Made by a program: the position numbers and the translations under genes
Part shown: positions 19,827 through 61,640 of the stretch, piece after piece
How positions within the stretch are numbered: position 1 is the stretch's first letter
How the letters are laid out: every line of letters begins with the position of its first letter
Notes under the pieces: generated by a model
Seen by the model: only the letters and a program-made list of their open reading frames with translations
What the model was told of the DNA's origin: nothing
Database searches by the model: none
Assembly: GCA_003222675.1 (NCBI GenBank)
Contig: QHWT01000075.1
Coordinates: forward strand, 31,674-95,673
Direction of reading: 5' to 3'
DNA from: Acidobacteriota bacterium
GTDB lineage: Bacteria > Acidobacteriota > Vicinamibacteria > Vicinamibacterales > 2-12-FULL-66-21
DNA: 64,000 nucleotides

Positions 19827-19911
19827 GCCGGGTCTGAAGTCCCGGCCTACGAACGAGGCGGGTCTGAAGACCCGCCCTACAATCCAGCTTCCAGCTAAAG
19901 CCGGAAGCCAC
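19827..19911. repeat. Three dispersed palindromes between nrdJ and the cupin gene
   Basis: 19827-19850 (GCCGGGTCT-GA-AGTCCCGGC then CTAC) and 19857-19880 (GGCGGGTCT-GA-AGACCCGCC then CTAC) are two variants of one palindrome with changed but mostly compensated stems. 19888-19911 is a third element (CTTCCAGCT-AA-AGCCGGAAG then CCAC), the same family as the two copies inside the NtrB-like kinase gene. Confidence 0.85.
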
Positions 19912-19923
19912 ACGAGCGGGTGC

Positions 19924-22755
19924 TTACGCGCAGCCGCTCGTCGTGCCGCAGTTGGTGCACTTGTAGCACGCACCGCTCCGGACCATGATCGACCCGCACG
20001 TCGAACACGGGGGAGCGTCCTCCTGATTCTGGATCGCGGCGAACGATGACGGCGATGCAGCCCTAAAGGGCTGCGCTACGGGCGAGGACGACGCAGGGCG
20101 ACCCGCCGTCGCCGCCACATCGAGCGGCAGCTGCTCCGGCGTCGTCGTGACCTCTTCGCGGTTGTTCACCCCCGCGCGGAACTGCGCCTCCGCCGACAGG
20201 AACTTCGCCGCCATCCACCGGAAGATGTAGTCGACGATCGATTTCGCGAAGCGGACGTCGGGGTTCTTCGTCATCCCCGACGGCTCGAAGCGGACGTGAC
20301 TGAACTTGTCCACCAGGTCCTGCAGCGGGACGCCGTACTGGAGCGCGTAGCTGATCGCCTGCGCGAACGCGTCCGCGAAGCCGGAGATCGTCGAGCCTTC
20401 CTTCGCCATGACGAGGAAGATCTCTCCCGGCATCCCATCCTCGAACAGACCGACGGTGATGTAGCCCTCGTGGCCCGCGATGTCGAACTTGTGCGTGATC
20501 GCATGACGCTCGTCCGGCAGCTTCCGGCGGACCGGCTCCGTCCGGCTGAAGCCGGACACCACGTTGCCGGACGCGTCCTTCGCGCCCGCCGCGAGGATCG
20601 CGGCCTTGCTCGTGTTCAGCGGCTGCGTCCGCTTGCTGCCGTCGCGGTAGATCGAGACCGCCTTGGCGCCCATCCGCCACGCGTCGACGTAGGCCTGCTG
20701 GATCTCCTCCACGGTCGCGTCCTTCGGCACGTTGACGGTCTTGCTGATCGCCCCCGACAGGAACGGCTGCGTGGCGCCGATCATCTTGATGTGACCCATG
20801 TAGTGAATCGACCGCGCGCCGCGCATCGGCTTGAACGCGCAGTCGAACACGGCGAGGTGCGGCTCCTTGACGTGCGGCGCCCCTTCGATCGTCTCGTGCT
20901 CGTCGATGTACTCAATGACGTCCTTGATCTGTGCCGGCGTGTAGCCGAGCCTCTTCAGCGCCATCGGGACGGTCTGGTTGACAATCTTCATCATCCCGCC
21001 GCCGACGAGCTTCTTGTACTTCACGAGCGCGATGTCCGGCTCCACGCCCGTCGTGTCGCAGTCCATCATGAAGCCGATGGTCCCGGTCGGCGCGAGCACC
21101 GTCGCCTGCGCGTTCCGGAAGCCGTGCTGCTCGCCCATCTCGATGACCTCGTCCCAGACGTTCTTCGCGGCGGACAGGAGGTCCTTCGGGACGTTCGTCT
21201 TATCGATGTCCTTCACCGCGGCGCGGTGCTTGCGCATGACGCGCAGGAACGGCTCCTTGTTCTTCTCGTAACCGGCGAACGGGCCGCCGTGATCGCGCGC
21301 GACGCGCGACGACTCCGCGTAGGCCGCGCCGTGCATCAGCGCGGTAATCGCCGCCGCGTAATCACGTCCCGACTCGCTGTCGTACGGCAGGCCGCGCGAC
21401 ATCAGCAGCGCCCCCAGATTCGCGTAGCCTAGACCGAGCGGGCGGAACGCGTGCGAGTTCTTTTCGATCGCCGGCGTCGGATAGCTCGCATTGTCAACGA
21501 GGATCTCCTGCGCCAGGATCATCGTGCGGCAGGCCTTCTCGAACGCAGCGACGTCGAACTCACCGTCCTCCCTCACAAATTTCATGAGGTTGATGGACGA
21601 TAGATTGCACGCCGTGTCGTCGAGGAACATGTACTCCGAGCAGGGATTCGACGCGTTGATGCGCGCCGTGTTCGGGCACGTGTGCCAGTCGTTGATCGTC
21701 GTGTCGAACTGCATGCCGGGATCGCCGCAGATCCACGTGCCTTCGGCGATCTGGCGCATCAGATCGCGCGCCTTGTAGGTCTCCATCGGCTCGCCCGTGC
21801 GCACCGCCTTCGTCGTCCACTCGCCGTCGTCCAGCACCGCGCGCATGAACTCGTCGGTCACGCGGACGGAGTTGTTCGAGTTCTGGAAGAACACCGAGCC
21901 GTACGCCGGGCCCGTGAACGAGCCGTCATAGCCGGCATCAATCAGCGCCCACGCCTTCTTCTCTTCCTCGACCTTGCAGTTGATGAACGCGCGGATATCC
22001 GGGTGCTCCGCGTTGAGGATCACCATCTTCGCCGCGCGGCGCGTCTTGCCGCCCGACTTGATGACGCCCGCGAACGCATCGAAGCCCTTCATGAACGACA
22101 CGGGACCCGACGCGGTGCCGCCGCCCGCCAGCAGCTCCTTCGACGAGCGAATGCTGGAGAGATTGGAGCCGGTGCCCGAGCCGTACTTGAACAGCATGCC
22201 TTCGGTCTTCGCGAGCGTCAGGATCGATTCCATCGTGTCCTGGACCGAGTTGATGAAGCACGCCGAGCACTGCGGCGCATTCTCGAAGCCGACGTTGAAC
22301 CAGACGGGCGAGTTGAACGCCGCTTTCTGATAGACCAGCAGGTGCTTCAGATCATCGGAGAACGCCTGCAGATCGTCGTCGCTCGCGAAATACTTCTGCT
22401 TCCTCGCCCACTCGGTGATCGTGTCGACGACGCGGCCGATCAGCTGCTTGACGCTCTTCTCGCGCTCCGGCGTCCCGATCTGCCCGCGGAAATACTTCGA
22501 GACGACGATGTTCGTGGCCTGCTGGGACCAGAACTTCGGGATCTCCACATCGCGCTGCTCGAAGACGACCTCGCCCTTTTCGCTGCCGATGACCGCCGCA
22601 CGCAGATCCCATTCGATTTCGTCGAATGGATCCACGCCTTCGTTGGTGAAGAACCGTTCGTACTCCAGGCCGGGCACGGTCGGTTGAGCCACTCGGGTCG
22701 ATTCCGACACGCCCGACCGCGGCGTCGGGCTCACAGGCGAAGCGCCTCTTTCCAT
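19924..22755 (-). CDS. nrdJ: Adenosylcobalamin-dependent (class II) ribonucleotide reductase
   Basis: A 943-residue enzyme converting ribonucleotides to deoxyribonucleotides without oxygen-dependent radical generation. ATG 22755 is preceded by GGAGGAAGC; an in-frame start at 22794 lacks this. Visible features are PQCSACFINSV, the catalytic NPCSEYMFLDDTACNLSS loop, TGTIGFMMDCDTTGVEPD, and the C-terminal zinc/redox tail CSTCG...CYKCTNCGTTSGC. Two short in-frame insertions encoded by perfect palindromes occur near residues 731-739 (VVSGFSRT) and 892-899 (VAQPFRAA), both in poorly conserved parts. Two NrdR-type boxes lie upstream. Confidence 0.96.
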   Translation of the reverse strand: MERGASPVSPTPRSGVSESTRVAQPTVPGLEYERFFTNEGVDPFDEIEWDLRAAVIGSEKGEVVFEQRDVEIPKFWSQQATNIVVSKYFRGQIGTPEREKSVKQLIGRVVDTITEWARKQKYFASDDDLQAFSDDLKHLLVYQKAAFNSPVWFNVGFENAPQCSACFINSVQDTMESILTLAKTEGMLFKYGSGTGSNLSSIRSSKELLAGGGTASGPVSFMKGFDAFAGVIKSGGKTRRAAKMVILNAEHPDIRAFINCKVEEEKKAWALIDAGYDGSFTGPAYGSVFFQNSNNSVRVTDEFMRAVLDDGEWTTKAVRTGEPMETYKARDLMRQIAEGTWICGDPGMQFDTTINDWHTCPNTARINASNPCSEYMFLDDTACNLSSINLMKFVREDGEFDVAAFEKACRTMILAQEILVDNASYPTPAIEKNSHAFRPLGLGYANLGALLMSRGLPYDSESGRDYAAAITALMHGAAYAESSRVARDHGGPFAGYEKNKEPFLRVMRKHRAAVKDIDKTNVPKDLLSAAKNVWDEVIEMGEQHGFRNAQATVLAPTGTIGFMMDCDTTGVEPDIALVKYKKLVGGGMMKIVNQTVPMALKRLGYTPAQIKDVIEYIDEHETIEGAPHVKEPHLAVFDCAFKPMRGARSIHYMGHIKMIGATQPFLSGAISKTVNVPKDATVEEIQQAYVDAWRMGAKAVSIYRDGSKRTQPLNTSKAAILAAGAKDASGNVVSGFSRTEPVRRKLPDERHAITHKFDIAGHEGYITVGLFEDGMPGEIFLVMAKEGSTISGFADAFAQAISYALQYGVPLQDLVDKFSHVRFEPSGMTKNPDVRFAKSIVDYIFRWMAAKFLSAEAQFRAGVNNREEVTTTPEQLPLDVAATAGRPASSSPVAQPFRAASPSSFAAIQNQEDAPPCSTCGSIMVRSGACYKCTNCGTTSGCA
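20057..20079. repeat. In-frame palindromic element in nrdJ (VAQPFRAA type)
   Basis: GCAGCCCT-AA-AGGGCTGC followed by GCTAC; a perfect 8-bp stem. Read on the coding strand it begins GTAGC and encodes VAQPFRAA in the linker before the C-terminal cysteine tail. Confidence 0.85.
20540..20562. repeat. In-frame palindromic element in nrdJ (VVSGFSRT type)
   Basis: GTCCGGCT-GA-AGCCGGAC followed by ACCAC; a perfect 8-bp stem. On the coding strand it begins GTG and encodes VVSGFSRT between two conserved parts of the enzyme. Confidence 0.85.
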
Positions 22756-22981: not shown

Positions 22982-23099
22982 AATCGCGCGATTTGACGCG
23001 GGCTTCTTTCGGCTGACCTATTTTCTGGCTTCGGGCCCTGCGGCTCCAGGCTTCCGGCAAGCGAGATGAGCCGAATCGGCGCGACTCGGAAGGACTCCC

Positions 23100-23131
23100 C
23101 TGAAGCCTGAAGCCTGAACGCCGAAGCCTAT
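23100..23131. repeat. GAAGCCT heptamer array at the stop codon of the proline-rich lipoprotein
   Basis: CTGAAGC-CTGAAGC-CTGAACGCCGAAGCCTA: 7-bp repeats whose final CTA is the TAG stop codon (minus strand) of the gene ending at 23128. The same arrangement is found at the hslU stop. The rest of 22982-23099 contains no recognisable feature. Confidence 0.8.
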
Positions 23132-23805: not shown

Positions 23806-25749
23806 TCAGGCTTGTGGAAAGATCAGTCTAAACCTTGTTCCGACGCCCGGCGTAGATTGCACCTCGACTTCGCCGTCGTGGAGCTGGACGATACGGTAGA
23901 CCATCGAGAGGCCGATGCCGCTGCCCTTCTCCTTCGTCGTGAAGTACAGATCAAAAATCTTCTGCAGGTGATCGGGTGGGATGCCGACGCCGGTGTCCTC
24001 GACATCGATCTCTACGCGTTTGCGCGACGTGGTGCGGCACGACAGCTTCAGCGTGCCGCCGTTCGGCATGGCCTGGCACCCGTTCAGCGCGAGGTTCAGG
24101 ATCGCCTGGCTGAGCATCGCCGGGTCCGCATTGATTTCCGGGAGCTCGCGCGGACAGTCGGGCCTCACCGCCACGTGCATCCGCTCGGCTTCGGGCGCGA
24201 CCGTCGTCGACACGTCGCTGATGATCGATGCCAGGTGGACTGGCTGCAACTTGAGCTCGTCGGGACGCGCGAACTTCAGGAAACCGCCCACGACCTGATC
24301 GAGGCGCTGGATCTCCTTGCCGATGATATCGACGTGTTTGGTGATGTTGCTGTCGACGAGGCCCCCGACTGCGTTCGCCGCAACTTGATCTTCCGCCTGA
24401 AGACGGAAGCCACGGGAGTCGGTATCGTGACCCCCGCGCGCGTCTCCTTCCGCCATCTCGTGGCTTCCGGCTTGAGCCGGAAGAACACCAACGCCAACGG
24501 GCACGAGCTGCGCCCTCACAAGCTTCTGCCGGAGCAGCTCGAGGTGAATCGTCATCGCATTGAGGGGATTCTTCACTTCGTGCGCGACGCCGGCCATCAA
24601 CCGTCCGAGCGCCGCGAGCTTGCGTGAGTAGTTCAGCGTGGAGTGTACCTGGTTCAGGTATGCGAGGTTGCGCGCGACGAGCATCGCACCGACGAACTTG
24701 TCGTCTGCGTCGTCGATCGGATGCGTCATCAGCAGCCGCTCTTCACCTTGATCGTTGGACACGGACACGGGCCCCTGCGGCCGATGCGCGGCGAGCGTGC
24801 GTTCGACGAGCTGTCGCACGGCGTCGTCCTCCGGCGCCATTTCAGACAGCCGCCGCGTCTGCGCCAGGGAGAATCCGGGCAGGAGCGAACCCATTGCCGG
24901 GTTGCAGAAGATCAGATCGCCATCGGGATTGAACAATGCGACCGCGTCCTCGAGGTTCTCGACGACCGTCTCGAACTCCGTCGGTGACGACAGCGCCTTC
25001 GCGCGCGACGCCGAGAGCTGCGCGCTCACCGCTTCGAACGACGTGCCGAGGCCCTTGAACTCCTCGCCGTCCGGCAGCTCGAGCCGCACATCGAGTTCGC
25101 CGCGCCCGAGCCGCGAGAGGCCGCTCTGGATCACGTGGATCGGCCTCAGCATCCACTGCGCGAGCAGGATCGCGACGAACGAGGACACCAGCAGCGCAAT
25201 CAATACGTTCTGCGCGGCCGCCTTGAAGGCCTTCTGCAGCTGGCTCTTGACGAGCAGCGTCGACACCCCGATGCGAATCGACCCGAAGTCCTGGTCCCCG
25301 AACACCAGCAGCTGGCGGATTTCGAACGTACGATCCGAGTAGACATTGCGCAGTAGATCGATCGACCCCTCATCGACGATCTTCTTGAGGTCTTCCTGCT
25401 CGGGAAGGCGCTGACCCTGGTAGGCGGGGAAGCTGTGCGCGACGGCAATGCCTTCGCGGTTGACGATTGCCGCGTACATGACGTTCTCAGAGCAGCACGC
25501 TGCCGACTCGAGCAGCGAGCGGATGCCGCCGTCTTTCTGCAGCGCAAGATACGCGGACGCCGCGTCGTTCGTCGTGGGGACGACGTCCCGCGCGCGCTGG
25601 AAGATCGCCTGCCCGAGCAGCTCGCCGCGCGACGCGCTCTCCTGCAGGCTCAGTCGCGCGAGCGTGGCAAGATGGTACGCCGACAACACCGCGACGATGA
25701 CCACGACGAGGGAGGTCACGCCGGCCACCTGGCGCGATTTGATCGACAT
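23806..25749 (-). CDS. Membrane sensor histidine kinase, NtrB/ZraS-like
   Basis: 647 residues: membrane helix at about 8-28, a periplasmic domain to about 180, a second helix at about 181-201, HAMP (about 202-250), PAS (about 255-365), HisKA with phospho-acceptor His390 (VAHEVKNPLNAM), and HATPase with NLALNGCQAM, DTGVGIPP and GSGIGLSM. About 50 residues (413-462) separate the two DHp helices, where related kinases have only a short turn. This insertion is encoded by two inverted palindromic elements. The gene follows the sigma-54 response regulator by 13 nt on the same strand. Confidence 0.92.
   Translation of the reverse strand: MSIKSRQVAGVTSLVVVIVAVLSAYHLATLARLSLQESASRGELLGQAIFQRARDVVPTTNDAASAYLALQKDGGIRSLLESAACCSENVMYAAIVNREGIAVAHSFPAYQGQRLPEQEDLKKIVDEGSIDLLRNVYSDRTFEIRQLLVFGDQDFGSIRIGVSTLLVKSQLQKAFKAAAQNVLIALLVSSFVAILLAQWMLRPIHVIQSGLSRLGRGELDVRLELPDGEEFKGLGTSFEAVSAQLSASRAKALSSPTEFETVVENLEDAVALFNPDGDLIFCNPAMGSLLPGFSLAQTRRLSEMAPEDDAVRQLVERTLAAHRPQGPVSVSNDQGEERLLMTHPIDDADDKFVGAMLVARNLAYLNQVHSTLNYSRKLAALGRLMAGVAHEVKNPLNAMTIHLELLRQKLVRAQLVPVGVGVLPAQAGSHEMAEGDARGGHDTDSRGFRLQAEDQVAANAVGGLVDSNITKHVDIIGKEIQRLDQVVGGFLKFARPDELKLQPVHLASIISDVSTTVAPEAERMHVAVRPDCPRELPEINADPAMLSQAILNLALNGCQAMPNGGTLKLSCRTTSRKRVEIDVEDTGVGIPPDHLQKIFDLYFTTKEKGSGIGLSMVYRIVQLHDGEVEVQSTPGVGTRFRLIFPQA
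24364..24513. repeat. In-frame insertion with two inverted palindromes inside the kinase gene
   Basis: 24390-24413 (CTTCCG..CGGAAG then CCAC) and 24460-24483 (GTGG then CTTCCGGCT-TG-AGCCGGAAG) are the same 24-bp element in opposite orientation, 46 bp apart. The remaining bases keep the frame open and encode low-conservation sequence (VPVGVGVLPAQAGSHE..DTDSRGFRLQ) in the DHp loop. Confidence 0.8.
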
Positions 25750-28874: not shown

Positions 28875-28897
28875 GGTCCGAGGTCCGAGGTCCGATA
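28875..28897. repeat. GGTCCGA heptamer array starting at a stop codon
   Basis: Three 7-bp units directly after the TGA of the CPBP gene. The same family occurs at 30271-30320, 53717-53790 and, as the reverse complement, 61574-61640. Confidence 0.85.
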
Positions 28898-28913: not shown

Positions 28914-30326
28914 GTGTCTTCAGCCACACAACCGGCAGCCGTGACGCGGCGCCAATGGGTCCTGCTTTTCTGCCTGTTTCTTCTGTCGCTGCCGGCGGTC
29001 ACGACGCGGATTTATTCTTCTGACGAGATTCAGTACTTCGCTTACCTGCGATCGCTCTGGTTTGATCGCGACCTGTCGTTCGAAAACGAGTATCGCTACT
29101 TCTACGATCGGGGCATCGCGCAGTCGGAAGGATTTCACGAGACATTCCTGGAGCGTCAGACGGAAGCCGGACGCCGCGTGAACTTCGGGACGATTGGATG
29201 CGCGATCCTGTGGGCGCCGTTCTACGCGGCAGGAGATATCCTCGCGCGAGTGACGGGCATGCCGGCAGACGGTTTTTCGAAGCCGTACATCGCGGCCGTC
29301 GCATACGGCTCCGCCGTGTACGGATTCGCCGCGATCGTGTTCGCGATGCTGTCGGCCGAACGTCTCGGCCTGGCGCCGTTCGGAGCCGCGCTCGCGGTGT
29401 GGTTCGGGACGCCTCTCCTCTTTTATATGTACGTCGCGCCACCGTTCTCGCACGCGTGCTCGGCATTCGCCGTCGCGCTGTTCATGTGGACGTGGCTGAA
29501 GGTGCGCGCCTCATGGTCCATCCAAGGCGCATTCGCGCTCGGCGCCGCGGGGGCGCTGATGGCGATGATCCGCGAACAGGACCTCTTTTTTGTGGCCGGA
29601 CCTGCAGCTGATTTCGTACTAACGGGCTTCAGGCTTCAGGCTTCAGGCTTCAGGCTCGCCGCCGGAGCCGCGGGTGTGCTCGGCTTCGCGGCGGCGTACA
29701 TTCCGCAGGCGATCGTATACGTGCGGCTGAACGGGCATCTCGGGCCGTCGCGGCTGGTGACGCGAAAAATGAGCTGGCACGCGCCGCATGCCCTGCAGGT
29801 CATGTTCTCGCCGGAGCACGGGTATTTCGTGTGGACGCCGCTCGCGTTGATCGCGATCGCTGGTCTCGTGTGGCTCGCGGTCGCAACGAACCAGAGCGAC
29901 AGGCGTGTCGCCGGCTGCATGCTTCTCGTGATTGCGCTGCAGGTCTATGTCGGCGGCAGCGTGGAATCGTGGACAGTCGCGGGGGCGTTTGGCCAGAGAC
30001 GATTCATCGCGCTCACCGCGTTCCTCGTGATCGGCCTTGCCGCGTTGATGCAGGCGCGCGCGGGATTCAGGCTCCGAAAGCGCGCGACCACGGTTGTTGT
30101 CGCGCTCGCCGTGTACTGGAATCTCGCGCTGATCGCCGAGTTCGCGACGGGGCTGATGGATCGGCAACGGCTCGAGCCTGCGAAGAACGCGTACGACGCC
30201 TTCATCACGGTGCCGCGGCTGGCGCCGTCGCTGGCATATCGGTACCTGTTCGAGCGAAGCTCGTTCTATCGAGGTCCGAGGTCCGAGAGCCGAGGTCGGT
30301 CCGAGACTCGAGGTCCCAGCTCCTGA
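28914..30326 (+). CDS. Integral membrane glycosyltransferase-like protein (PMT/GT39-like)
   Basis: A 470-residue protein with about 10 predicted membrane helices, starting at GTG 28914. The early loop YSSDEIQYFAYLRSLWFDRDLSFENEYRYF contains the acidic residues expected of the first periplasmic loop of GT-C enzymes. It is homologous in layout to the second module of the fused gene at 37862 (FYYFAYLRSIAFDRDVNFNNDYRL). Four in-frame heptamers encode GFRLQASGFRL (about residues 238-250), and the C-terminus (RGPRSESRGRSETRGPSS) is encoded by GGTCCGA heptamers. It is probably involved in lipid-linked sugar transfer to a surface glycan. Confidence 0.8.
   Translation: MSSATQPAAVTRRQWVLLFCLFLLSLPAVTTRIYSSDEIQYFAYLRSLWFDRDLSFENEYRYFYDRGIAQSEGFHETFLERQTEAGRRVNFGTIGCAILWAPFYAAGDILARVTGMPADGFSKPYIAAVAYGSAVYGFAAIVFAMLSAERLGLAPFGAALAVWFGTPLLFYMYVAPPFSHACSAFAVALFMWTWLKVRASWSIQGAFALGAAGALMAMIREQDLFFVAGPAADFVLTGFRLQASGFRLAAGAAGVLGFAAAYIPQAIVYVRLNGHLGPSRLVTRKMSWHAPHALQVMFSPEHGYFVWTPLALIAIAGLVWLAVATNQSDRRVAGCMLLVIALQVYVGGSVESWTVAGAFGQRRFIALTAFLVIGLAALMQARAGFRLRKRATTVVVALAVYWNLALIAEFATGLMDRQRLEPAKNAYDAFITVPRLAPSLAYRYLFERSSFYRGPRSESRGRSETRGPSS
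29626..29657. repeat. In-frame GGCTTCA heptamer array inside the membrane glycosyltransferase
   Basis: Four perfect GGCTTCA units and a partial fifth. Because 7 is not a multiple of 3, the run cycles through the frames and encodes GFRLQASGFRL with no stop. It is the reverse complement of the TGAAGCC arrays at 23100 and 53795. Confidence 0.85.
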
Positions 30327-53716: not shown

Positions 53717-53829
53717 CGAAGTCCGAGGTCTGAACGGCCGACGTCCGAGGTCAGAGGTCAGAGGTCCGAGGTCCGAGGTCCGAGGTCCGAACCTTGAAGC
53801 CTGAAGCCTGAAGCCCCGAAGCCCGAAGC

Positions 53830-61573: not shown

Positions 61574-61640
61574 CGGCCCAAATCTCGGACCTCGGACCCT
61601 CGGATCTCGGACCTCGGATCTCGATCTCCGACCTCGTCTA
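61574..61640. repeat. CGGACCT heptamer array upstream of the GAF-PAS kinase
   Basis: Seven to eight imperfect 7-bp units (CGGACCT, CGGATCT, CGGACCC), the reverse complement of the GGTCCGA family at 28875, 30271 and 53717. It lies within 20 bp of the ATG at 61655. Confidence 0.82.

Follow-up and report, generated by a model that had tools for sequence, protein, structure and literature searches.

A high-copy, GTRG-tagged REP family and its dimer in the variable linker of an NtrB-like histidine kinase

The inserted sequence in an NtrB-like sensor histidine kinase gene (23806..25749, minus strand) of the 64,000-nt window, the whole stretch of DNA analysed, is best read as a dimer of REPs from a high-copy, GTRG-tagged family that was deposited and tolerated in a disordered, variable linker (probability about 0.88). 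The REPIN-like dimer spans 24390..24483 (minus strand) and codes for kinase residues ~423-454. As the earlier note had described, it consists of two palindromes in inverse orientation, 46 bp apart. REP unit 1 (CTTCCGCCTGAAGACGGAAGCCAC; 24390..24413, plus strand) reads GFRLQAED on the coding strand, and REP unit 2 (CTTCCGGCTCAAGCCGGAAGCCAC; 24460..24483, minus strand) reads LPAQAGSH. By eye, 21 of 24 positions are identical once one unit is reverse-complemented; unit 2 matches the search pattern exactly and unit 1 differs from it at two positions. As RNA, the dimer has a folding energy of -53.8 kcal/mol and folds better than shuffled sequences (hairpin z = -4.6). The palindrome pair is more than chance. 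The reading frame of the kinase ORF stays open across both palindromes, and the 94 nt of the dimer account for ~31 of the roughly 60 loop residues, although 94 bp is not a multiple of 3 and represents the length of the dimer core rather than the exact inserted length.

Both units belong to a family that is abundant throughout the genome. A search with the pattern CTTCCGGCTNNAGCCGGAAGCCAC, allowing up to 3 mismatches, recovered 153 copies in the 7.16-Mb genome versus 1 for the reversed control. The consensus of 98 copies is CTTCCG[C/G]CT[G/A]AAG[G/C]CGGAAGCCACGAGATT, which gives the unit 5'-AATCTCGTGGCTTCCGCCTTYAGGCGGAAG-3' when written from the tag end. The unit is 24-30 bp long and conserved position by position, as expected of a repetitive palindrome family. 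The arrangement of copies was assessed in a sample of 100 REPs within 455 kb of stretches, mostly picked around REPs. Among the 29 neighbouring pairs lying within 300 nt of each other, 20 point inward (+/-) as the window dimer does, which is the REPIN arrangement. Since many genome copies form this same inverted pair, the insert in the kinase gene is assigned as a REP dimer. When the whole insert was searched against the genome, most matches were partial and anchored in a REP. Single REPs without a partner are also common in the sampled stretches, and one of the main type lies intergenically in the window at 19888..19911 (plus strand), immediately after the stop codon of the ribonucleotide reductase gene.

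The host gene encodes a HisKA-type sensor kinase in which Pfam identifies HAMP, PAS, HisKA (residues 381-408), and HATPase_c (542-646) domains, and which was aligned with 13 homologues. The phospho-acceptor His390 is invariant (14 aligned homologues), and the dimer lies C-terminal to it, between intact DHp helices. With HATPase_c in place as well, the open frame and intact downstream motifs reported earlier are borne out. The two DHp helices are joined by a hypervariable linker (residues ~411-470; 24340..24519, minus strand), delimited by orthologue segment lengths, the alignment, and pLDDT. A match to the kinase gene is present in 12 of 12 genomes of the family, its own included. Orthologues were compared using ten family proteins, one of them from genome G001. 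In G001 (L051), the frame upstream of the kinase start contains tandem NWKLEAG/SWKLETG repeats, which probably account for its 1003-residue open frame. None of the ten orthologues compared, the same-genus one included, carries a REP at the linker site. The window protein has 109 residues in the segment from HEVKN to FARP, compared with 56, 72, 72, 74, 75, 79, 81, 86, and 94 in nine of the orthologues. Because this length varies from 56 to 94 residues among orthologues without REPs, the kinase loop is taken to be an ancestrally variable linker. The linker itself ranges from ~7 to 45 residues across relatives, with 7 in the shortest orthologue and ~37 in the same-genus one.

These lengths bear directly on the size of the insertion, which the earlier note put at about 50 extra residues. 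That figure is too high: the window protein exceeds the same-genus one (86 residues) by 23 and the orthologue median by 34, and a difference of 53 is reached only against the shortest orthologue. The same note had reasoned that orthologues with an unrelated loop of similar length would make the extra length ancestral, and this holds in part, in that the linkers of relatives are variable and free of REPs, with segments of 56-94 residues versus 109. The clean insertion boundaries and target-site duplication that were to be sought in an orthologue alignment did not emerge, since the loop is unalignable even against the same-genus orthologue, so that neither the boundaries nor an empty site can be read. 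A contig scan for a closer relative with an empty site returned distant homologues only, at no more than 48% identity, and the nearest named homologues, on which the phylum assignment was based, are proteins of two Acidobacteria MAGs (48% and 44% identity).

The position of the dimer raises the question of whether the loop has been recruited for kinase function, by setting the handedness of the hairpin, stabilizing the dimer, or providing a protein contact. In histidine kinases, hairpin loops can affect autophosphorylation geometry, and the loop does lie between the DHp helices of a kinase whose frame and motifs are intact. Recruitment is nonetheless very unlikely, as the linker is unconserved among relatives, unrelated proteins contain the same REPs, and the linker is modelled as disordered both with and without a REP. 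In an AlphaFold2 model built from a 14-sequence alignment, residues 416-465 have pLDDT below 50 and are flanked by helices at 362-415 and 464-494, and residues 415-443 of the REP-free same-genus protein are likewise predicted without a resolved fold. Given the modest overall confidence (pTM 0.35), the model speaks for a disordered loop and says nothing on signalling; the proposal of a repeat-derived loop at a signalling hinge thus finds no support in it. Deposition and tolerance of the dimer fit these features, since the frame was kept open and the residues were added where the DHp hairpin has its tip, in a disordered and already variable linker. The kinase would then still work with its REP-derived loop, and the extra residues may be neutral.

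It was also suggested earlier that the insertion resembles a miniature element that had carried an internal segment. This implies a classical MITE, in which terminal inverted repeats and a carried segment are moved by a DDE transposase that leaves a target-site duplication. An in-frame repeat insertion is indeed present, and its internal segment is bounded by inverted terminal palindromes. However, a private element of two copies plus a carried segment does not fit, as both units are members of a family of more than 150 copies and the 46-bp spacer (24414..24459) has no second 46-nt copy in the fetched loci by local blastn, which gives no support to the idea of a spacer that is a repeated element in its own right. 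In the sampled stretches, spacers between dimerized REPs vary from 12 to 87 nt and share no sequence; this variation and the frequency of single REPs likewise speak against a MITE. No direct repeat is seen by eye at the dimer edges (24387-24389 and 24484-24486), and the hypervariable loop precludes comparison with an empty site. A classical MITE is therefore highly improbable. The chance that the extra length is ordinary divergence of a loop that is hypervariable in REP-free relatives as well, with palindromes arising by accident or codon bias, is close to nil, as the units match the family pattern with 0 and 2 mismatches and the 153-versus-1 contrast in copy number refutes such an origin.

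For a REP dimer, it is envisaged that a RAYT-type HUH transposase (TnpA-REP) would have spread the REPs through a single-stranded hairpin and that the dimer would have arrived at the kinase gene as one unit. The spacers are heterogeneous in length and sequence, which weakens the case for arrival as a single unit. Among the other observations that count against the explanation are a GTGG rather than a GTAG tag and the lack of a REP-flanked RAYT in the window genome. At the position where the GTAG tag has T, 99% of copies in the window genome have C, though the search pattern itself favors C. In the same-genus genome (G011), most of the copies listed end in the canonical GTAG tag (...GCTAC). With one mismatch allowed, the family numbers 129 copies in the window genome, 86 in G011, 147 in G002, and 180 in G034, and the remaining 145 of the 149 genomes of the order contain none to seven copies each. 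A GTAG-tagged sibling REP (search pattern GTCCGGCTNNAGCCGGACRCYAC) reaches 352 copies in G016 and 93 in G024.

The RAYT-like transposase genes of G010 (L093) and G129 (L105) have the GTAG-tagged sibling REP GTAGTGTCCGGCTTYAGCCGGAC on both sides, and these loci represent REPtrons in relatives. The G129 protein scores above the cut-off of the NCBIfam model for REP-associated tyrosine transposases and the G010 protein just below it. An intact RAYT at a contig end in G011 is 43% identical to that of G129. In the window genome, two more distant Y1_Tnp genes fall below the same NCBIfam cut-off, and no REP occurs in the ~10-kb stretches surrounding them. Only G010 and G129, and there with the sibling REP, thus yielded a transposase flanked by its own REPs. 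No Y1_Tnp match was obtained in the REP-rich G002 and G034, both of which are fragmented assemblies. A candidate decayed RAYT at G000:C22:303284 (E = 0.025, 4 stops) was discarded, as the match of the same-genus RAYT there does not rise above noise. With no REP-flanked RAYT in the window genome, mobilization by a RAYT is suggested by the architecture of the repeats and by the relatives.

The kinase gene is not the only host gene. A simple gene caller based on codon usage (84.8% coding) was applied to stretches selected for containing REPs, and of 100 REPs, 36 lie inside ORFs, 4 over gene edges, and 60 in intergenic sequence. Random placement puts a mean of 83 REPs inside ORFs (minimum 69 in 500 trials). 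The family as a whole is therefore mainly extragenic, as is typical of REPINs, while the kinase copy itself is intragenic. When dimers are collapsed, 20 of 71 REP events fall in the interior of ORFs of at least 120 residues, and Pfam identifies FtsA, UvrA, an AMP-binding/acyltransferase protein, and the class II ribonucleotide reductase NrdJ among the hosts. In-frame REPs are present in ftsA (L107:2761-4272) and uvrA (L124:937-3891) of the same genome. In the window, a single sibling-type REP (CGTCCGGCTGAAGCCGGACACCAC; 20539..20562, plus strand) lies in frame in nrdJ and encodes the peptide GNVVSGFSRT in a variable linker that joins the barrel and TSCPD domains and differs in length among relatives. 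The REPs that persist in genes appear to have passed a filter: REPs are depleted in ORFs, and the survivors in the kinase gene and nrdJ, the two genes whose REP sites were compared among orthologues, are situated in variable linkers. A broader claim, that REP dimers in this lineage are a recurrent source of in-frame linkers in core proteins and that some, such as the kinase loop, are now functional, is judged highly improbable. Should loops of this origin prove to matter in kinases or NrdJ, they would make it possible to test whether selfish repeats can be the starting material of protein linkers.

Intragenic REP dimers as such are already known. The portion of the catalogue of GTAG- and CGTC-tagged REPs drawn on here (Di Nocera et al., 2013; PMC3733652) includes REPs and dimers inside ORFs, where they add 20-30 residues, lists uvrA among recurrent hosts, and states that REPtrons may be missing. 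The present family resembles the GTAG-tagged REPs in that portion in its short palindrome with one tagged end, its dimers of opposite orientation, its occurrence in some ORFs, and its uvrA host. It differs in its GTGG tag (GTAG in the same-genus species) and in that no cognate RAYT was found, and neither its sequence family nor the kinase host is described in that part of the catalogue. REPINs were defined as elements distributed in extragenic space, with GI doublets spaced 71 bp between invariant 16-mers (Bertels and Rainey, 2011; PMC3116915). The window dimer shares with them an inverted REP pair with a spacer, the capacity to form one long hairpin, and frequent doublets, but it lies in a gene and the spacers of its family vary more than the fixed GI-doublet spacing. 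Palindromic repeats in frame in genes are also represented by the Rickettsia palindromic elements RPE-1, RPE-4, and RPE-6, of which RPE-4 and RPE-6 correspond to the CGTC group without a dedicated transposase, according to the same portion of the catalogue (PMC3733652). Those elements belong to a different phylum, and the likeness drawn here follows their description there rather than their sequence.

No prior description of this REP family in Acidobacteriota was found in the open-licence literature. What is new here is the REP family and its kinase host gene; the kinase case is a tidy instance of an already familiar type of event and not a new system. The family is abundant in a few species of one order, where it writes residues into acidobacterial core proteins, and it explains the recurrent peptides FRLKAEAT, LPPEGGSH, and VASAFRRK met in unrelated proteins of these genomes. 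The window also holds short tandem arrays of CGGACCT-like heptamers (53756-53789, 28875-28894, and 61586-61620) and arrays of CCTGAAG-like heptamers (23099-23117, 29629-29654, and 53793-53811).
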